Below are positions 42,368 to 52,731 of a DNA stretch of 64,000 nucleotides, piece after piece. The DNA is from Corynebacterium timonense (GTDB taxonomy: Bacteria; Actinomycetota; Actinomycetes; Mycobacteriales; Mycobacteriaceae), in assembly GCF_900105305.1 (NCBI RefSeq), contig NZ_LT629765.1:1054001-1118000 (forward strand), given 5' to 3'. Every line of letters starts with the position of its first letter. Positions within the stretch are counted from its first letter, which is position 1. The notes beneath the pieces were generated by a model. It did not search any database, was not told the DNA's origin, and was given only the letters and a program-made list of their open reading frames with translations. Position numbers and translations under genes: made by a program.

Positions 42368-43051
42368 CAGTATAGCGAAGACTCCGGCATCAAAGTGCTC
42401 GACCGCGCAGTCGTCATCGTGCGGTCCGTCGCCGCCGGCGACAAATCCCTGGCAGAGCTAAGCACCGATACCGGCCTGCCACGAGCAACGACCCATCGCA
42501 TCGCCACGGCTCTCGAGGTCCACCACATCCTCGCACGCACCCCCGCCGGAGCGTGGACGGTTGGCTCGGCGCTCGCTAGCTACGCCACCCGCACCCCGCC
42601 GCAGCTTCTCTCCGCCGCGGGGCCACTCATGCGCGACCTCGTGCGTGAGACCGGCGAATCCGTGCAGCTCTACCAGCTGACGGGCGACACGCGCACGTGC
42701 ATCGCCGCGGAGGAACCAACCAGCGGCCTGACGTACACGGTTCCCGTCGGCTCGCAGCTCAGCCTCACGGCGGGCTCGGCCGCGCGCGTCTACGCGGCTT
42801 TTTCGCTGATCGACGCCCACCCTTTCCCCGCCGACGAACTCGCCGCCGTTCGCGACAGCCTCGTCGCCGAATCCGTCGCCGAGCGCGAGGTAGGCCTGGC
42901 CAGCCTGTCTACCCCCGTCTTCGACCCCGAGGGGGAGATCGTGGCGGTGTTGTCCATCTCCGGACCTGTCGAACGCCTCGGCCCCCACCCCGCGCAGAAG
43001 TGGGGCGCGCAGCTCACGGACGCGGCCCGCACGCTGCGCGAGGCTCTTTAA
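42362..43051 (+). CDS. ltbR: IclR-family regulator, LtbR-like
   Basis: A 229-residue IclR regulator. An N-terminal winged HTH ([20 protein letters not shown], about residues 30-50) is followed by the IclR effector domain with [19 protein letters not shown] and [16 protein letters not shown]. Its position divergent from leuCD matches LtbR of corynebacteria, which represses leucine and tryptophan genes. The GTG at 42362 aligns with the known start region; an ATG at 42338 in frame would add 8 residues. Its stop overlaps the convergent fusion gene by 4 bp. Confidence 0.88.
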
Positions 43052-45801
43052 CCTGCGGCGTCGATCGCGTCGAGCTCGCCCGCCGGCCACACCACATTGC
43101 GCGCCAGCGGGATCTGGTGCGAGGCAGACTCCAAGATATGCATGAGGTAGCCGGCCGTGTTCGGGATCGCGACGATATCCCCCGGGGCGACCCCGGAGGG
43201 GAAGCGCACCTTCCGGCGGAGGATCAGCTCGTCCTCGATGCAGTACGCGCCAACGAGAAAGGCCTCGAGCTCCTCGCCGGGTTCGCTGGCACGAATGAGA
43301 ATCGGGTCGACGAGGTAATCGTCGGAGGTGCTGCGGCACTGCGTACGGTTCATGTACAGGCCCACCAGCGGCACACCGTCGCTACGTTCCTTGACAAAGG
43401 CGACCTCGGCGAGGGTCAGGCCGCAGCCGTCGAGCAGCGCGCGCCCGGGCTCGAGGTGGAGGCGCAATCCGCGCTCGCGCAGCGCCGCCGCGGTGCCGCC
43501 GCCGAGGACCTCGCGCAACCACGCCCCGCGCGTGGGGCTCTGCCAGTAGGGGTACACGGTGGTCAGAGGGTCGGCCTTCCACGTGAACGGTTCGGCGTAG
43601 CCGTGGGGCTGCGCGGCAATCGCCTGCTCGTAGGCGCGCCACTGCTCCTCGTGGGCAAGGTAGCTCATGGGCACGCCCCCGCCGAGATCAATGAACTCGA
43701 GCTCATGGCCGGCGTCGCGCAGGCCGTCGACAAGCCGCACCGCCTCCTCGAGCGCGACGCGACGGTCGGCCGCCGCGTAGCCGTTAAGGTGCACGTGCAC
43801 CCCCACCACGCGCACCCCGGCGCGCGCGCTGGAACAGCAGCGCAGCCAGGTGTCCTTGCGCTCCCCGAAGCGGGTGGGCGCCACGGCCGCGGGGTCGGGG
43901 GCCAGGCGCGGCGCGACGCGAACCGTCCGGCCCGCCGCGAGGTCCGCGATGCGCTCGTACTCCCCCGCGTTATCTACGGAGATGACCACCCCGCTGTCAA
44001 TCGCGAGGCGCAGAAGCGCGTCCGGCTTCACCGCCGCCGTGAGGATGATGTCCCTGCCGCGCACCCCGCGCTCGAGCACCTGCCTCAGCTCGTTCTCGCT
44101 GGCCACGTCCACGCCGTGACCAGCGTCGCGCACGGCGTCGACAAAGGCGAGGGCTTTGTTTGCTTTGCGGGCGTAGTAGAGCCGCAGCTCGACCCCTTCC
44201 GCCGCCGCGGCCTCGACGAGCTCGGCGGCGTTTCGCTTCAGAGGCTCCGCGTCGACCACGTTGACCGGGCTGGAAAAATCGCGGATGAGCCCGCGGCACG
44301 CCTCGTTGTCGGCCAGAAGCCGCTGTGCCCACGGCTCGAGGCAGGCCCGCAGCGGGGGCATCCCGTGGACGCGCTCTGGGTCGGCGAGAGCCGCGCGGCT
44401 GACCCTGCGCGCCCACGCCGGGATGACCTCGTGCTCGCCGCGCCGCAGGGTGTCGTGGCCGAGGATCCACCCCTCGCTCATCCGGCCGGCCGCCGCGAGG
44501 TGCTGCTGCCCGACGAGCGTGCCGTCGCGCTCCACCATGATCGCGCCCGTCTCGCCGTGAACTCGGGCGATGCCGCGTTCGACGAGCAGGCCGGCGACAG
44601 TTCCCTTCACCGGGCCCGGAGGTGCGTTGACCGCGTCGACGACGGCGGTGGCGCCCACCTCCCGCGCCAGCGCGGTCAAGTCCTCGTCCCCGCGCCCCAG
44701 GAGGTCCGTGCGGATCCGGCCGGATTCGATCATCCCGAGCACCTGCCCGGCCGTCTCGGCCGGCGGGCCGAAGGCGACGCGCTCCAGGGTTGTGGTCAGC
44801 TCGCCGAAGCGCTCACCGCCCAGCGAATCGCGCCCTCCGAAGGAGGCGCGTTCGACAACCGCCCCATAGGCGGCGCGGAAGGCGTAGCCGACGGCGGCGG
44901 CGGGAGTCCAGGCGCGGCTGCCCACGGCGACTTCGTAGGAGGCGCGCAGGTCCTCGACGGGGTCTGTGCCGTCGCGGCCAGCGAGCACGGCGCGCACTCC
45001 CGCCTTGTCGCCTGCGCCCCCCGCGGCGGCGAGGACGTCGAGGGACAGGTCGGCGAGGGCGTCGATAAGCTCAGTGAAACCTGCCGCCCCGCGGATGGAG
45101 TCCTCGGCCGCGCGCAGCGCCGGGCGAAGCTGCGCGGCCTGGTCGGGCGCGAGGTGGCACTTGACGTCCATGAACCGCCCTCCGCGCGCGACCGGGTAGA
45201 AGATGCCGGCGCGGCAGTAGCGCACGACATCCACGAACGTTAAGGCCGCGCCCCTGACCAGAGCGGTATCGTGCGCGCCGATGGCGTCGAGGTTGCCCGG
45301 AGGGAAGGCCCGCACCACAGTGTTCACGCCCTCGACCGAGTCTGGTGCGAGGGCCCCCGGCCAGTCCTCGGCGTGGCCGGTGGCAAGAAGCGCCTCGTCG
45401 TAGCGCGTCCCGTCGACCGCCACGCCGCCGTCGGCGGGGATGATCTCATCCACGCGGTGGTCGACGATCTGCACCGTGCAGCCGGCGGGCACCCAGTGCG
45501 CGAGCGCGGACCACGAGGCCGCGATGAACCGCCCCACCACGCGACGGGACGGGTACTCGTCGTCGTCCCCCCGCCACTCATTGAGACCGCCGAGGCGGGT
45601 GTGCACCGTCTCCGCGGGCACGTTGAGCACCCATTCGGCGGGAAGGTCCGGCTGGTACGAGCCGAGCCCTCCCGCCGTGGCCACCGGCCCGTCGTTGTAC
45701 ACGCTGAGCTCGATGGCCGCGCCACGTTCGCGGGCCCGGCTGAACAGTTCCTCGGCCGCCCACAGCCCGCGGGGCCCGGCCCCAATAATCGCGACTTTCA
45801 C
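43048..45801 (-). CDS. Fusion: FAD/NAD(P)-binding module + Y4yA-like PLP decarboxylase module
   Basis: 917 residues, GTG start. The N-terminal part (about 1-510) has a dinucleotide-binding start VAIIGAGPRGLWAAEEL and LLATGHAEDWPG, as in FAD/NAD(P)-binding proteins of the NAD_binding_9 type. The C-terminal part (about 515-917) is a fold type III PLP enzyme: LYYARKANKAL with the PLP-binding Lys, HVHLNGYA, FIDLGGGVPMSY, HLEPGRALL, and an ending like the Y4yA group (GAYCIEDELILRRKV, NTAGYLMHILES). It probably oxidises or hydroxylates and decarboxylates an amino-acid-like substrate; the substrate is unknown. The SbnA-like gene lies 4 bp upstream in the same operon. Confidence 0.85.
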   Translation of the reverse strand: MKVAIIGAGPRGLWAAEELFSRARERGAAIELSVYNDGPVATAGGLGSYQPDLPAEWVLNVPAETVHTRLGGLNEWRGDDDEYPSRRVVGRFIAASWSALAHWVPAGCTVQIVDHRVDEIIPADGGVAVDGTRYDEALLATGHAEDWPGALAPDSVEGVNTVVRAFPPGNLDAIGAHDTALVRGAALTFVDVVRYCRAGIFYPVARGGRFMDVKCHLAPDQAAQLRPALRAAEDSIRGAAGFTELIDALADLSLDVLAAAGGAGDKAGVRAVLAGRDGTDPVEDLRASYEVAVGSRAWTPAAAVGYAFRAAYGAVVERASFGGRDSLGGERFGELTTTLERVAFGPPAETAGQVLGMIESGRIRTDLLGRGDEDLTALAREVGATAVVDAVNAPPGPVKGTVAGLLVERGIARVHGETGAIMVERDGTLVGQQHLAAAGRMSEGWILGHDTLRRGEHEVIPAWARRVSRAALADPERVHGMPPLRACLEPWAQRLLADNEACRGLIRDFSSPVNVVDAEPLKRNAAELVEAAAAEGVELRLYYARKANKALAFVDAVRDAGHGVDVASENELRQVLERGVRGRDIILTAAVKPDALLRLAIDSGVVISVDNAGEYERIADLAAGRTVRVAPRLAPDPAAVAPTRFGERKDTWLRCCSSARAGVRVVGVHVHLNGYAAADRRVALEEAVRLVDGLRDAGHELEFIDLGGGVPMSYLAHEEQWRAYEQAIAAQPHGYAEPFTWKADPLTTVYPYWQSPTRGAWLREVLGGGTAAALRERGLRLHLEPGRALLDGCGLTLAEVAFVKERSDGVPLVGLYMNRTQCRSTSDDYLVDPILIRASEPGEELEAFLVGAYCIEDELILRRKVRFPSGVAPGDIVAIPNTAGYLMHILESASHQIPLARNVVWPAGELDAIDAAG

Positions 45802-45805
45802 TCTG

Positions 45806-46741
45806 CTAGTTCACGTTCCTTTCCACCCAGTCGTCGTTGTAAATCGTATCGAGGTAAGCGCGCCCGTCGTCGTGGAAAATGGCCACGATCTCAGCCCCCG
45901 GGTGCGCCCGGGTGATCGTGTCGACGCCCACACACACCGCGCCGCCGGACGCCCCGGGAAGAAAGCCCGTCAGCCGCGCCGCGCGGCGGGCGGCGGCGAC
46001 GGCATCCGCGGCCCCGACGCGTACCACCTCCTGCGGGGCGAGCCCGCGCGACAGCTCCGTTTCCACTCCCGCCCCGTACCCGGGCAGCACCCGCTCGCCA
46101 CGCGCGCCGCCGAAAAGTACCGAGCCCTCCGCGTCGACCGCGATCACGCGGGTCCCCAGCCCGCGGCCGTTGATGTAGCGCAGGCACCCGCCGAGGGTGC
46201 CCGTGGTGCTCACCGCCACAACGAGGAAATCCGGGGCGTGGCCGAGCTGTTCCACGATCTCGCTCATCGTCCCCTCCGCGTGAGCGGTGAACGCGGCCGT
46301 ATTTGAGTACTGGTCCAGGTTCACCGCCCCCAGCTGCTCCACCAGTTCGGCGACGCGGGCGCGCCGCGCCGTCAGCCAATCCCCCGTCGCTGGGTCGGGC
46401 TCGGAGACCGGGTGGATGTGCGCTCCCAGCGCCTCCATGTGGGCCAGCGTGACGTGGTTCGTTCGGGGGTCGACAACGCAGTGAAACTCGAAGCGACCGA
46501 CGACAGCCTCGCGGGCGAGCGCCACCCCGAGGTTTCCAGAGCTCGACTCCACCACGACGCTGCCGGGGCCGAGCACGCCGCGAGCGATGGCGTCGGCCAC
46601 GAGCGCCCGCGCCGTGCGGTCCTTCGCGCTGCCGCCCGGATTGAAGGACTCCAGCTTCGCCCACGCCCCGAGCTCGTCGAGGAGAACAAGCGGGGTGGCG
46701 CCGATGGCCCCGAGGATCCCGGGTTCACGCACAGATTTCAT
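45806..46741 (-). CDS. Cysteine-synthase-family PLP enzyme, SbnA-like
   Basis: A 311-residue fold type II PLP enzyme. It has the PLP Lys motif NPGGSAKDRTARAL, the Asn loop SSSGNLGVALA, the phosphate loop VSTTGTLGG and the C-terminal LPGASGGAVCVG. It is closer in feel to SbnA (which makes a diaminopropionate precursor) than to CysK, because of the AKDR motif and the decarboxylase-like neighbour; this is inference. A TATAAA on the minus strand (46751-46756) lies 9 nt ahead of the ATG at 46741, so the transcript may be nearly leaderless; an ATG at 46747 is the alternative. Confidence 0.85.
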   Translation of the reverse strand: MKSVREPGILGAIGATPLVLLDELGAWAKLESFNPGGSAKDRTARALVADAIARGVLGPGSVVVESSSGNLGVALAREAVVGRFEFHCVVDPRTNHVTLAHMEALGAHIHPVSEPDPATGDWLTARRARVAELVEQLGAVNLDQYSNTAAFTAHAEGTMSEIVEQLGHAPDFLVVAVSTTGTLGGCLRYINGRGLGTRVIAVDAEGSVLFGGARGERVLPGYGAGVETELSRGLAPQEVVRVGAADAVAAARRAARLTGFLPGASGGAVCVGVDTITRAHPGAEIVAIFHDDGRAYLDTIYNDDWVERNVN

Positions 46742-46826
46742 GCGCATCAGTTTATACTTCGTGTGTGGGTGGCCTCTGCCCGTCTTTTCGTTTTCGTTAT
46801 ACATCTGGCGGAGGTACGCTCACGCG

Positions 46827-49460
46827 GTGCGACAAAGCGGACAGATTCTCAGCCGGGACATCCGGCGCCTTGTGCGCGTTCCTCGCGCCTTCATCATCAT
46901 CCTTGGCGTTCTCATCACCCCGGCGCTCTACGCGTGGTTTAACATCAACGCCTTCTGGGACCCGTACTCCAACACCGAGAACATCCGCATCGTCGTGGTC
47001 AACCAGGACCGCGGCGCCGTCATCGAGGGCGACGGCGCCGACGAAGAGGACCGCGAGATTGACGTCGGCAAGCAAATCAGCGAGCAATTAGAGGAAAACG
47101 ACACCATCGGGTGGGAGTTTTTGCCCGAGGACGAGGCGCGCGACGCGCTCATGCGCGGCGAGTACTACGCCATGTTCCTCATCCCGCCCTCGTTTAGCGA
47201 GGACATCCTGAGCCTCGCCGAGGAGACCTACGTCCAGCCGACGTTGCAGTACTACGCCAACGAAAAAATCAACGGCGTCTCCCCCACCATCACCGACGCC
47301 AGCGCCTCCGTCATCGACTCCACCATCGCCACGACCTTCAAGCAGCAGGTCGCCGAGGCGGCGGCCTCCGAGCTACGCGACGCGGGCCTCGAGCTGCGCC
47401 ACGACACTAACACCGCGCGCGACAACGCCACCGGCGGGCTCGAACAGGTCGCGCAGAGCCTCGACTCCGCCAGCGAACGCGTCCAGGAGATGAGATCCAC
47501 CGTCAACGGCGCCCGCCCCGTCGTCGGCGAGCTGCGTAACCTCGTCATCTCCGTGGACGACACGCTCGGCAGTGTCGGCACGGCGCTCAACGACATCGAA
47601 GGGCTTTTGCGCAGCCTCGAAGCCTCCTCCGCCGACTTTTCGGCGTCGGCGTCAACCGCCCTCCTCGAATCGACGAACGCCCTGAGCACGGGCGCCGCCT
47701 CCGCGAACGCCTCGATCACGTCCGCGACCGACGAGCTGAAAACGGCGCAGGCCCGGGCGCGTTCCGCCCTCAGAGAGGTCGAGGGAGTTCTCTCCCAGGG
47801 CGAGGCCGCCACCGCCCAGCTGCGCTCTCTCGCCGACGGGGCGCCCATCTCCCCCGCGATCTCGGCGGAGATCGACAGCGTGATCAGCGCCCTCGAGGAG
47901 CGCACCGGCGCCTCACGCGAGATTATCGACGGGCTGGGCGACCTCGACCGCACGACCGGCACCGCGCTCGACTCGCTGGGCGCGCTGGGCGATTCGTTGG
48001 AGCAGGCGGCTGGCGATTCCGCGTCGAACGCCCGCCTCGCCCGCGATGAACTGGCGTCAACCGTGCCCGCAATCAACGCCGCGTTGTCCCGACTGTCCGG
48101 CAGCGTCGCCTCCGTGCGCGGCGCTGTGACCAGCCAGCAGGCCCTCACTGACGAGACGCTGGTGCTGCTCGCCGGCGTGGACAACCAGCTCACCTCGTCA
48201 CTCAGCGTGCTCAACCAGGTGAGCGGCAACCTGGTGACGCTGGCCGACGGCGCCCGCACCGCGCAAAACGACATCGCGACCCTGTTGTCCACCTCCGACT
48301 CCGAGACGCTCAACAACGTCACGAGCCTGAACTCCGTCCAGATCGGCGAGTACATCGCCGAACCCGTGAGCGTCGAACAGCACGAGGTCTTCCCCGCGGA
48401 CAACTACGGCAGCGCCATGGCGGCCTTCTTCACCAACCTCGCGCTGTGGATCGGCGCCTTCGTGCTCACGATCATCTTCCGCGTCGAGGTCGACATGGAG
48501 GGCTTCCGCCGCCTCACTGTCGGGCAGGCGTACCTGGGGCGTTTCTTCCTCTTTGCCACCCTGTCCGCCCTGCAGGCCATCGTGGTCTCGGTGGGCAACC
48601 TCGCGTTCGGCGTGCAGATGGAATCGATCGCCGCGTTCTTTGTTACGGCGATCCTCACCGGCATCGCCTACACCGCCATCATTTACGCCATCGTCTCCGC
48701 CTTCGGGCACCTCGGCCGGGGGCTTGCGGTGCTACTTGTTGTCATCCAGATTCCGGGCGCCTCCGGCCTCTACCCCATCGAGCTGATGCCCGGCTTCTTC
48801 CGCGCCCTCTATCCCCTCCTGCCGTTTAGCTACGGCATCAACGCCATGCGCGAGACTATTAGCGGCTTCTACGGCGGCCATTACTTCCGCTATATGGCCG
48901 TTTTGTTCGCCATTGCGGCGCTCGTCATGGCCCTGGGGTGGCTGTTCCGCCGCACCTCCTCGCACGCGAACCTGCTGTTCAACCGCCAGCTGGCTACGAC
49001 CAACCTGATCACCAGCGAGAAGGTCGAAGTGATGGGCTCGCCCTACCGCATTTCCGACATCATGGCGGCGCTGTCGGACCGCAAGGAGTTCGGTGAGGCC
49101 GTGGCCAAGCGGGCGCGCTTCCTGCACGAGAACTACAAGACCCTCATCTTCGCAGGGATCGGAGCCGGCGTCATCGGCGTGGCCATCATCACCGGCCTGA
49201 CCATGCTGCTGCCCACCGACAAATCGGTCATGCTCGCGATCGCGGTAGCGTGGTCGCTTCTGGTCATCCTCTACCTCGGCGGCGTCGAGTACTTCACGCA
49301 GAGCCTCGTCGACGCCCAGCAGGTCACGAGGCTTGGCGACGCCGAGCTCCGCGACGCCGTTGTCCACCGCCACGACTCCACAGGCACCGCGGTCACCATC
49401 GCTGGCATACCCGCTGACGGCCACGAGGAGGACCACCACGAGGAAGGGGAACGCTCGTGA
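46827..49460 (+). CDS. YhgE/Pip-family membrane protein (first of pair)
   Basis: An 877-residue membrane protein. One N-terminal span (FIIILGVLITPALYAWFNI, about residues 22-42) precedes the Pip N-terminal domain (AFWDPYSNTENIRIVVVNQDRG). A long extracellular, Ala/Ser/Asp-rich coiled-coil region (about 190-510) follows, then a cluster of five or six spans in the ABC-2-like C-terminal domain. A last hydrophobic pair near 760-820 sits before a charged tail. The family includes phage-infection and envelope proteins; some members act in secretion. The start is GTG, with GGAGG 12 nt upstream. It overlaps the next gene by 4 bp. Confidence 0.85.
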   Translation: MRQSGQILSRDIRRLVRVPRAFIIILGVLITPALYAWFNINAFWDPYSNTENIRIVVVNQDRGAVIEGDGADEEDREIDVGKQISEQLEENDTIGWEFLPEDEARDALMRGEYYAMFLIPPSFSEDILSLAEETYVQPTLQYYANEKINGVSPTITDASASVIDSTIATTFKQQVAEAAASELRDAGLELRHDTNTARDNATGGLEQVAQSLDSASERVQEMRSTVNGARPVVGELRNLVISVDDTLGSVGTALNDIEGLLRSLEASSADFSASASTALLESTNALSTGAASANASITSATDELKTAQARARSALREVEGVLSQGEAATAQLRSLADGAPISPAISAEIDSVISALEERTGASREIIDGLGDLDRTTGTALDSLGALGDSLEQAAGDSASNARLARDELASTVPAINAALSRLSGSVASVRGAVTSQQALTDETLVLLAGVDNQLTSSLSVLNQVSGNLVTLADGARTAQNDIATLLSTSDSETLNNVTSLNSVQIGEYIAEPVSVEQHEVFPADNYGSAMAAFFTNLALWIGAFVLTIIFRVEVDMEGFRRLTVGQAYLGRFFLFATLSALQAIVVSVGNLAFGVQMESIAAFFVTAILTGIAYTAIIYAIVSAFGHLGRGLAVLLVVIQIPGASGLYPIELMPGFFRALYPLLPFSYGINAMRETISGFYGGHYFRYMAVLFAIAALVMALGWLFRRTSSHANLLFNRQLATTNLITSEKVEVMGSPYRISDIMAALSDRKEFGEAVAKRARFLHENYKTLIFAGIGAGVIGVAIITGLTMLLPTDKSVMLAIAVAWSLLVILYLGGVEYFTQSLVDAQQVTRLGDAELRDAVVHRHDSTGTAVTIAGIPADGHEEDHHEEGERS

Positions 49461-51634
49461 GGACGATTCTTTCCATTGCCTTCAACGATCTGCGACGCCT
49501 GTACACCAACGTCATGGCCGGCATCGTCATGGTCGGGCTCATCGCCATCCCCTGCCTGTTCGCCTGGTTCAACATCCTGGCCACCTGGGACCCCTTCGGC
49601 AACACCGAACGCCTCAAAGTCGCGGTGGCCAACACCGACGAGGGCCACACCAGTACCATCACTCCGCTGTCGGTCAACGTCGGCGACATGGTCTTGTCCC
49701 AGCTCTACCGCAACGACGCGATGGACTGGGTCATCACCAGCGAAGAGGACGCGATCGAGGGAGCACGCTCCGGCGAGTACTACGCGGCCATCGTCTTGCC
49801 GCCGACGCTGAGTGACAACATGCTCACCTTCTACACCGGCGCCGCCGAGCCGAGCACCATCGACCTCTACGTCAACGAGAAGAAGAACCCGATCTCCCCG
49901 CTCATCGTCTCCGCGGGCGGCGAAGGGGTCGGCTCGCAGATCAACGAGACCTTCACGCGCACGCTGTCCGAGGTGGCCTTCGGGCTGATCGAGACCGCCA
50001 ACGACTTCCTCAACGAGGACGAGACGATACGCGCGCTCGACTCGATTGAACAGCGCACGATCAACGTCCGCGACCAGCTTCTATCCGGGGCGGACACCGT
50101 CGACGCGCTCGCCGCGCTGACGGAATCGAGCGTCCCCCTCGTCGACGGCGCGCAGCGCATCGCCGACGCGTTCGACGCTTCTCTCAACCAGATCCAGCCG
50201 GCGGACCTCGGCGACCTAGGCACGCAGCTCGGCACCGGGGCGGGCTCGCTCGGCGCGGCGCTCGCCGCCACCGCTGACAGCTACTCGCAGGTCGGCGACC
50301 GCGTCGACGAGCTTCTCGCCGACGCGGGAGCGACCTCGCAGGCGACGGCCGGGACCCTGAGCGACATCGCGGCGCGTATCGACGTCCAAGCAACGCAATA
50401 CACCACCCTGCGCGACCGACTGAATAACGAGGTCATCCCGGCGCTGCCCGCCCCGGCCCAGCCGCCGCTGCGTTCCGTGGCCGCCAGCCTCGACGACACG
50501 ATCGCCCGCCAAACCACGGTGCGCGACCACCTCAACGACGCCGCCGCCCGCATCGGCGCCGGCCGCGGTAGCGACGACGACCGCCGCGCCATCGCCGAGT
50601 CGATCGGCGCGGCCCGGGACGCCGCGGACTCTGCACGCCAGACCTTCGACACCACCGTGCGCCCCCAGCTCGAGTCCCTGGCCGGATCTGTCCAGGGCGT
50701 CCAGTCGAGCGTCGATAAGGCGCGCTCCGACATGGCCGGCGTGGCTACCGCGCTGGATAACTCCCCCGGCTCGTTGCGGGCCACCCTGGCAACGACGGGC
50801 GAGGACCTGCGTTCGATGGCGGAGTCGATGCGCGACAGCGCCGCGACGATGCAGGACGCGCAGCGCTCCATCGCGCAGGCGCGCGCCGAGGGCGACGTGA
50901 GCGAGCTCGCCGACCTCATCGCCAGCCGCCCGGAGGAGTTGGCGGACGCGTTGGTGGAGCCGATCGCGATCGATCGCCAGGCCGTTTTCCCTCGCGCCAG
51001 CTTCGGCGCCGGTATGACCCCTCTCTACACCGTCATCGCGCTGTGGGTCGGCGCGCTGCTGAGCGCTGTCGCGCTGCGCACGGACAAGGAGTCCGTGGTG
51101 CAGAACGTGGTCGACCCGGAGGACGTGACCACGGCGCAGGAGTACTTCGGCCGCTACCTCACTTTCGTGGTCACCGGCCTGGCGCAGTCGACGCTGATTA
51201 TGGGCGGGCTGATCCTCTACGTGGAGATCTCGCCCGCGCATCCCTTCCTGCTCTTCGTCGCGGGGTGGGTGTCCAGCCTTGTGTTCCATATGATCTGTTA
51301 CACCCTCGTGCTCTCGTTAAGCAACGCTGGCAAGGCGATCGGCGTGATCCTGCTCGTCCTGCAGGTCTCCGCAGCCGGCGGCGCCTACCCGCTCATGATG
51401 CTTCCCGAGTGGGTGCAAAACACCAGTCCGTGGTTGCCGGCAACATACTCGGTGTGGGCGATGCGTGCGGCCATCTTCGGCACCTACGACGGCGACTTCT
51501 GGAAGGCGATCGGCATGCTCCTGTTGTTCACCCTGCCGTTCCTCCTCCTCGGGCTGTGGCTGCGCAACCTGCTCGCCACGCCGATCGGCAAGATGGACGA
51601 CGCGGTGGCGAGGACGAAGGTGCTCCAAGGCTAG
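49457..51634 (+). CDS. YhgE/Pip-family membrane protein (second of pair)
   Basis: A 725-residue paralogue of the preceding gene with the same plan: N-terminal span (VMVGLIAIPCLFAWFNI), the ATWDPFGNTERLKVAVANTDEG domain, a shorter helical extracellular region (about 170-500) and a C-terminal block of about six spans. The GTG start overlaps the upstream stop by 4 bp, so the products are probably made in equal amounts and may form a heterodimer. Its stop codon TAG is the CTAG that borders the IS481-type element, so the insertion hit the very end of the gene without changing the protein. Confidence 0.85.
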   Translation: MRTILSIAFNDLRRLYTNVMAGIVMVGLIAIPCLFAWFNILATWDPFGNTERLKVAVANTDEGHTSTITPLSVNVGDMVLSQLYRNDAMDWVITSEEDAIEGARSGEYYAAIVLPPTLSDNMLTFYTGAAEPSTIDLYVNEKKNPISPLIVSAGGEGVGSQINETFTRTLSEVAFGLIETANDFLNEDETIRALDSIEQRTINVRDQLLSGADTVDALAALTESSVPLVDGAQRIADAFDASLNQIQPADLGDLGTQLGTGAGSLGAALAATADSYSQVGDRVDELLADAGATSQATAGTLSDIAARIDVQATQYTTLRDRLNNEVIPALPAPAQPPLRSVAASLDDTIARQTTVRDHLNDAAARIGAGRGSDDDRRAIAESIGAARDAADSARQTFDTTVRPQLESLAGSVQGVQSSVDKARSDMAGVATALDNSPGSLRATLATTGEDLRSMAESMRDSAATMQDAQRSIAQARAEGDVSELADLIASRPEELADALVEPIAIDRQAVFPRASFGAGMTPLYTVIALWVGALLSAVALRTDKESVVQNVVDPEDVTTAQEYFGRYLTFVVTGLAQSTLIMGGLILYVEISPAHPFLLFVAGWVSSLVFHMICYTLVLSLSNAGKAIGVILLVLQVSAAGGAYPLMMLPEWVQNTSPWLPATYSVWAMRAAIFGTYDGDFWKAIGMLLLFTLPFLLLGLWLRNLLATPIGKMDDAVARTKVLQG

Positions 51635-51635: not shown

Positions 51636-52727
51636 TGTACTTCCCCGGGAGGTTGTGAACGGTGTGAGCGGATGGGGGAATCCTCCGGTAGTGGTGTAGG
51701 TATCCACACGAACACCGATCCGGAAGGCTTCCATGACACACCGTAACGCACCTTTGACCCCGACCGGCAGAGCAAGGATGGTTGAGCTGGTCATCACCCA
51801 CGGATGGACGCAGCGCCGGGTCGCTGAACGCTTCCAGGTCTGACCAGCCACCGTCAACAGGTGGGTGAGCCGGGCACGCCGTGGCGAAGTGCTCACTGAC
51901 CGGTCACACCGTCCGCGCACGTGCCCGCACCAGCTGCCGGTGCGCACCCAGCGCCGCATCATCAAACTGCGGTTTACCCGCCAGTGGGGCCCACACCGTA
52001 TTGGCTACCACCTGGGAATTCCCCGTTCCACGGTTGGTCGGGTGCTGGCGCGCTACAACATGCCGAAACTAGTCTGCATCGACCAGGCCACCGGCCTGCC
52101 GGTGCGCACAGCACCACCAGTGCGCTATGAGCGCAGCCAACCCGGGGACATGATCCATGTCGACATCAAAAAGCTCGGTCGCATCCCCGACGGCGGGGGC
52201 TGGCGCGTGCACGGGCGTGGCTCTGAACAGGATCGCCGGGCGGGCCGCGCCCGCAACGCACAAAAACAGGCTGGTGCACCCGCCGGGCGCGAGTATTCCT
52301 ACCTGCATCACGCCGTGGATGACTACTCACGGATGGCGTACTCGGAGATCCTTCCTGACGAGAAGAAGCACACCGCCGCCGGTTTTATGCGGCGTGCCTG
52401 CGCGTTCTTTTCCCTCCACGGTGTCGAGGTCACCCGGGTGATGACCGATAACGGAGCCTGCTACCGTTCCACGGCGTTCAACGCTGCCCTGGGCACGATT
52501 AAGCATGTCTCCACCAAGGCGTACCGGCCGCAGACCAACGGCACGGTCGAGCGGTTTAACCGCACCCTGATGCAGGAATGGGCCTACATCCGCCCATACA
52601 CCAGTGAAAAGGCCCGGCAGCAGACGTATGCGGAATTCATCCACGACTACAACTACCATCGAGCCCACACCGCCATCGACGGCCTCACCCCCGCACAACG
52701 CGTTCACAACGTCACGGGGAAGTACAC
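51635..52727 (+). mobile_element. IS481-type insertion sequence, copy A
   Basis: 1093 bp. Terminal inverted repeats are near-perfect: GTGTACTTCCCCG...GTTGTGAACG on the left and the same sequence inverted on the right. CTAG flanks both ends (51631-51634 and 52728-52731) as a 4-bp target duplication. It encodes one DDE transposase, which has an in-frame stop. Confidence 0.88.
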
Positions 52728-52731
52728 CTAG
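51733..52731 (+). pseudogene. IS481-type transposase with an early in-frame stop
   Basis: A 332-codon frame with TGA at 51841-51843 inside the N-terminal HTH (ERFQV-stop-PATVNRWV), where a Ser is expected. Past the stop it is intact, with DDE residues in MIHVDIKKL, VMTDNGACYRS and TVERFNRTL. Its own stop codon comes from the flanking CTAG, not from the element. A protein starting after the TGA would lack the first HTH and is probably inactive. Confidence 0.85.

Follow-up and report, generated by a model that had tools for sequence, protein, structure and literature searches.

A 64,000-nucleotide stretch of the Corynebacterium timonense chromosome (the window; NZ_LT629765.1, positions 1,054,001 to 1,118,000, within a closed chromosome of 2.63 Mb) carries a cassette of two genes that code for an SbnA-like fold type II pyridoxal phosphate (PLP) enzyme and for a fusion of a flavin N-monooxygenase-like module with a fold type III PLP decarboxylase. 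The cassette is a heritable unit whose genes are co-inherited. Its genes, their fusion and conservation, the folds and conserved residues of the products, and the co-inheritance are observed, and we infer each reaction, the reaction order, and the product; whether the two genes constitute a complete and autonomous three-reaction pathway whose product is a small ethylenediamine-type compound, decarboxylated and N-oxygenated, is, in our estimation, an even call. Both genes are on the minus strand, with the 311-amino-acid SbnA-like protein at 45806..46741 (start at 46741) followed after a 4-bp spacer (45802..45805) by the 917-amino-acid fusion protein at 43048..45801; these are the same open reading frames and spacing as in the original prediction, which was made from the sequence alone.

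The fusion is genuine

An assembly or frameshift error at the domain boundary, a possibility that the original prediction had raised, is ruled out by the survey of relatives. Among the matches listed, 91 of 99 proteins (the window's own included) cover 66 to 100% of the fusion. We surveyed 151 Corynebacterium genomes, counting as holders those with a match of at least 324 bits (the next best genome scores 158 bits); the tallies are a recount of the matches listed, and weak cross-hits to ordinary LysA, which gave a tally of 130/151, were not used. The family is held by 69 genomes, and in 45 of these both halves lie in a single open frame (27 as one match, and 18 in pieces that fall within a common frame of at least 800 amino acids). 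Thirteen holders have the halves as two adjacent open frames, two have two frames with stops, and in nine the family is broken, displaced, or at contig ends.

Pfam matches on the one chain are NAD_binding_9 at residues 4 to 143 (E 1.8e-14) and Orn_Arg_deC_N at residues 538 to 726 (E 2e-24), and structure prediction with AlphaFold2, which had been proposed with the original prediction, folds the complete chain with a mean predicted local distance difference test (pLDDT) score of 93.7 and a predicted template modeling (pTM) score of 0.90. In a split relative (L018) each of three genes overlaps the next by 4 bp, and the start motif of its decarboxylase, HGTVPL, is still recognizable at the fused junction as HGMPPL, which fits the loss of a stop codon between neighboring genes. 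Fused rows fall into two groups amid unfused ones in the decarboxylase tree, one of 21 rows (100/98) and one of six rows (96/98, one of them unfused), with the bootstrap not settled, and the fusion may have arisen once or twice.

Co-inheritance and distribution

The SbnA-like gene (E <= 1e-60) is present in 67/151 Corynebacterium genomes, and the flavoprotein-decarboxylase is in the same 67, plus two (G002 and G038) with remnants only. The two genes are no more than 200 bp apart in 65 of the 67; the exceptions, G020 and G125, have 1,644 bp between them, and in G020 an RtcB-like gene intervenes. Five genomes (G016, G049, G077, G121, and G069; L014-L017 and L035) have second cassette copies, partial or stop-bearing, about 7 to 15 kb from the intact one, which suggests duplication and decay and points to a mobile or dispensable character of the cassette.

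The full-length flavoprotein is rare outside Corynebacterium. In samples that overlap in part, it is present in 3/249 genomes at the order level (E < 1e-55; two are Corynebacterium), 4/394 at the class level (again two Corynebacterium), and 5/346 at the phylum level (the C. timonense genome included). Eight loci outside Corynebacterium were read, of which five have the order SbnA, flavoprotein, and decarboxylase; of the others, one stops within the flavoprotein after SbnA, one has the flavoprotein alone, and one has no match to the three queries at 1e-8.

The SbnA-like enzyme

The first gene product has the AKDR motif (GGSAKDRTA) and a PALP match in Pfam, and its nearest structure in the PDB is Staphylococcus aureus SbnA (5d84, E 4.6e-53), bearing out the initial assignment as an SbnA-like fold type II enzyme; its closest named relative is from C. 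auris (87% identity). The SbnA model TIGR03945 scores 300.2 bits (E 1.4e-89), below the curated cut-off of 349.95, and we therefore do not file the protein as SbnA. Among relatives from three-gene (trio) loci, one orthologue from another class passes (L064, 361.4), and three are below the cut-off (L063, 343.6; L018, 338.1; L068, 337.6). Arg132, Tyr152, and Ser185 of SbnA are the residue set that selects O-phosphoserine, according to PMC12414870. These align with R126, Y145, and S178 here, and the set is kept in 119/119 relatives among the matches listed and in all eight other trio loci. The protein is thus a predicted O-phosphoserine-dependent beta-substitution enzyme that should work like SbnA.

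The flavin module

By fold, the N-terminal module of the fusion (residues 1 to 474, boundary approximate; 44380..45801, minus strand) belongs with the class-B N-hydroxylating monooxygenases typified by the aspartate N-hydroxylases FzmM/CreE, with the flavin adenine dinucleotide (FAD), NADP, and helical substrate domains all in one fold. The oxidizing module of the original prediction thus stands as an FAD/NAD(P)-binding domain and is sharpened, by fold, to an N-hydroxylating monooxygenase. The catalytic Asn62 of FzmM/CreE, near the flavin, corresponds to N60 and is Asn in 103 of 105 aligned rows, the other two being gaps. R409 is kept as R309, and R276 could not be placed. In the profile alignment the aspartate-binding R412, N413, and R416 are not kept and are Y312, G313, and V316 here; of the 105 rows, 100 have Y at the first of these positions, 95 have P or D at the second, and 101 have V or I at the third. 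No nitrosuccinate lyase gene was recognized beside the cassette, and no profile search for one was made. The C. timonense genome codes for two further FzmM-like NAD_binding_9 proteins, at 411.9 kb (L077:1419-3326) and 1792.1 kb (L078), and the former aligns over its whole length with aspartate N-hydroxylase (E 1.4e-62).

The decarboxylase module

The C-terminal module (residues 475 to 917; 43048..44379, minus strand) was originally described as a Y4yA-type fold type III decarboxylase, and standalone relatives of this half do carry the name 'Y4yA family PLP-dependent enzyme' in their sources; no Y4yA model is among the NCBIfam matches. By the roles of these motifs in the family, the Lys of ARKANK (residue 546) is the likely PLP lysine and the Cys of YCIEDE (residue 854) the likely catalytic cysteine.

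Proposed pathway and alternatives

In the route that we propose, the SbnA-like enzyme would displace the phosphate of O-phospho-L-serine with an amino acid, attached through its amino group, to give an N-substituted 2,3-diaminopropionate; S. aureus SbnA carries out this kind of reaction with glutamate. The flavin half would then oxygenate a nitrogen of this anionic intermediate using NADPH and O2; as a variant, a secondary amine could be cleaved via a nitrone, giving a 2-oxo acid and the hydroxylamine of diaminopropionate, which would replace SbnB. Finally, the fused PLP decarboxylase would strip the alpha-carboxylate from the diaminopropionate part. The fusion suggests channeling of an unstable intermediate, and would let the decarboxylase catch the N-oxygenated species as it is made. 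The compact route to an unusual amine advanced in the original prediction is judged plausible. More speculatively, corynebacteria (judging by the names of relatives, human-associated species among them) and scattered other actinobacteria might share a minimal and portable pathway in which one bifunctional protein both N-oxygenates and decarboxylates a diaminopropionate derived from phosphoserine. The result would be an undescribed N-oxygenated ethylenediamine-type metabolite (a hydroxylamine, oxime, nitro compound, or precursor of an N-N bond) acting as an antimetabolite or as a diffusible ligand for metals; we hold this broader picture to be tentative and rather doubtful.

The strongest alternative, unlikely in our view and still a serious contender, dispenses with N-oxygenation. 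With the same SbnA logic, the flavin half would act as an oxidase or dehydrogenase that replaces SbnB and releases diaminopropionate and a 2-oxo acid from the SbnA product, and the decarboxylase would form ethylenediamine or an N-(2-aminoethyl)-amino acid. Such a product might bind metals in the manner of ethylenediamine disuccinic acid (EDDS); [S,S]-EDDS, the zincophore of the aes cluster, is reported to be under Zur control. The cassette is without SbnB, the only ornithine-cyclodeaminase family (PF02423) protein of the genome is encoded at another site and reaches 62.9 bits against an SbnB model cut-off of 326.9, and the flavin core also resembles reductases. Against this, the flavin half taken along its full length is closest in fold to an N-hydroxylase, and its catalytic Asn hardly varies.

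Alternatively, the order could be reversed. In the valanimycin route a decarboxylase provides an amine, which is N-hydroxylated, and the hydroxylamine is then coupled; likewise, the decarboxylase here would make an amine, the flavin half would hydroxylate it, and the SbnA-like enzyme would couple the hydroxylamine to phosphoserine. The same three enzyme types suffice, and a decarboxylase/N-hydroxylase fusion fits channeling in this direction too. We regard this order as improbable, given that sbnA comes first in the gene order of the loci read and that the flavin half has basic residues better suited to an anionic acid than to a bare amine.

The analogy with staphyloferrin B in the original prediction fares less well. 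Under this explanation the cassette would supply a diamine to a nonribosomal peptide synthetase-independent siderophore (NIS), consistent with the fold resemblances to SbnA and SbnH and with the presence of one NIS synthetase in the genome, and we consider it highly improbable. An IucA/IucC (NIS) synthetase is present in 19/151 Corynebacterium genomes, six of the 67 with the cassette versus 13 of the 84 without it, so that the two are not associated (Fisher p 0.32). The window genes read at the locus include neither SbnB nor an NIS synthetase, and no NIS synthetase gene was seen in the neighborhoods read, which were inspected by cluster and by eye, without individual profile searches. With 61 of the 67 cassette genomes lacking an NIS synthetase, and no SbnB or regularly linked transporter seen, a staphyloferrin B role of the cassette is unlikely, and a metallophore role in general is conceivable. 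The single NIS synthetase of the C. timonense genome is about 750 kb from the cassette, at about 1851 kb (L001/L033), behind a fused acetyltransferase-like domain, and adjoins ABC genes and a C-terminal protein piece resembling lysine N-hydroxylase by eye; this is probably a hydroxamate siderophore locus.

Six other Corynebacterium genomes have a different cluster (L023-L028; e.g., L026:6696-14185) coding for an ornithine-cyclodeaminase-like protein, a distant fold III decarboxylase (24 to 32% identity), a CysK/CBS-like enzyme, and a MATE exporter; several also have an ABC importer of the metal or peptide type close by, and L026 has a TauD-like dioxygenase. An NIS gene was not recognized by eye among the called genes of these 20-kb stretches, and two of the six genomes (G043 and G067) have NIS genes elsewhere. 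This could be an undescribed metallophore cluster. It was considered as a version of the cassette in which SbnB substitutes for the flavoprotein and was dropped as strong support, since the phosphoserine residue set is absent in 5/5 SbnA-like proteins checked; further, one scanned SbnA-like protein scores best as a cystathionine beta-synthase, and the SbnB-like proteins reach 74 to 79 of 326.9 bits.

Lastly, an ordinary diaminopimelate decarboxylase of the lysine pathway with an unrelated fused domain, the name that several source annotations give to relatives of the fusion and an outcome that the original prediction had entertained, is excluded by a LysA (TIGR01048) score of 110 bits versus a cut-off of 297.9 and by a bona fide LysA at 436.7 bits elsewhere in the same genome.

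Upstream region and neighborhood

A putative -10 element, TATAAA (46751..46756, minus strand), is 9 nt upstream of the sbnA-like ATG. A similar xxTAA(A/G) pattern is close before the ATG in 25 of 36 sbnA-like loci and lacking in 11, versus 41/465 other genes, in a count for which the pattern was chosen after inspecting the sequences, the search stretches were not identical, and six SbnB-type loci were dropped first. This recurrence across loci suggests that the sbnA-like transcript may be leaderless. Zinc or iron control was considered and set aside, as inspection of the upstream regions by eye, not by a scan for Zur or DtxR motifs, gave the conserved -10-to-ATG arrangement and no operator common to them.

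In a comparison of neighborhoods across Corynebacterium, as envisaged in the original prediction, the flanking genes differ between genomes (leuCD with its IclR regulator, YhgE-like ABC-2 membrane proteins, and cytochrome-bd genes) and look like insertion-site neighbors. An ABC-2-type exporter is downstream of the cassette in two genomes (L052 and L053) and not in most loci read, and no regularly linked transporter was seen in them. Within the window, two large ABC-2-type (YhgE-like) membrane proteins are divergent from the cassette (46587-51634), and also adjoin it in several relatives and are absent in others; an integrase-core (rve) transposase open reading frame is at 51865-52731, with a second relative by clustering near 55.3 kb.

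Significance and comparison with known systems

The original prediction knew of no described product for the fused form, and we likewise found no description of the cassette or of a product in the open-access literature, subscription papers being mostly outside the search. If the proposed route is correct, the cassette would be a natural N-hydroxylase-decarboxylase fusion and one of the most compact routes to an N-oxygenated diamine, carried by 67/151 sampled Corynebacterium species. It would offer a two-gene, directly testable system for a metabolite of common bacteria, and annotations such as 'diaminopimelate decarboxylase' and 'FAD/NAD(P)-binding protein' would be corrected.

Each component has known counterparts. 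The SbnA-like enzyme shares its fold, whole-length similarity, and O-phosphoserine-selecting residues with S. aureus SbnA, and differs in falling under the SbnA model cut-off and in having neither SbnB nor NIS genes beside it. The flavin module resembles the FzmM/CreE L-aspartate N-hydroxylase (PDB 8cp2/8cp5) in its three-domain FAD/NADPH/helical fold, catalytic Asn, and several basic pocket residues, but is shorter, lacks the aspartate-binding residues, and is fused to a decarboxylase. The decarboxylase has the fold and active-site motifs that Y4yA enzymes share with LysA, ODC, SbnH, BtrK, and FslC, although it is not LysA by score, and the flavin module is attached in most Corynebacterium carriers. 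A chemical parallel is L-alanosine biosynthesis, which also combines diaminopropionate with flavin N-oxygenation, using an FzmM-type aspartate N-hydroxylase and a second N-hydroxylation; in the available portions of the two sources, that route differs in its carrier-bound diaminopropionate, acyl-CoA-dehydrogenase-like hydroxylase, and cupin NNzyme candidate, and no decarboxylase fusion is described (PMC11705231, PMC7347517). The cassette is a set of known enzyme folds in a new fused and autonomous combination.
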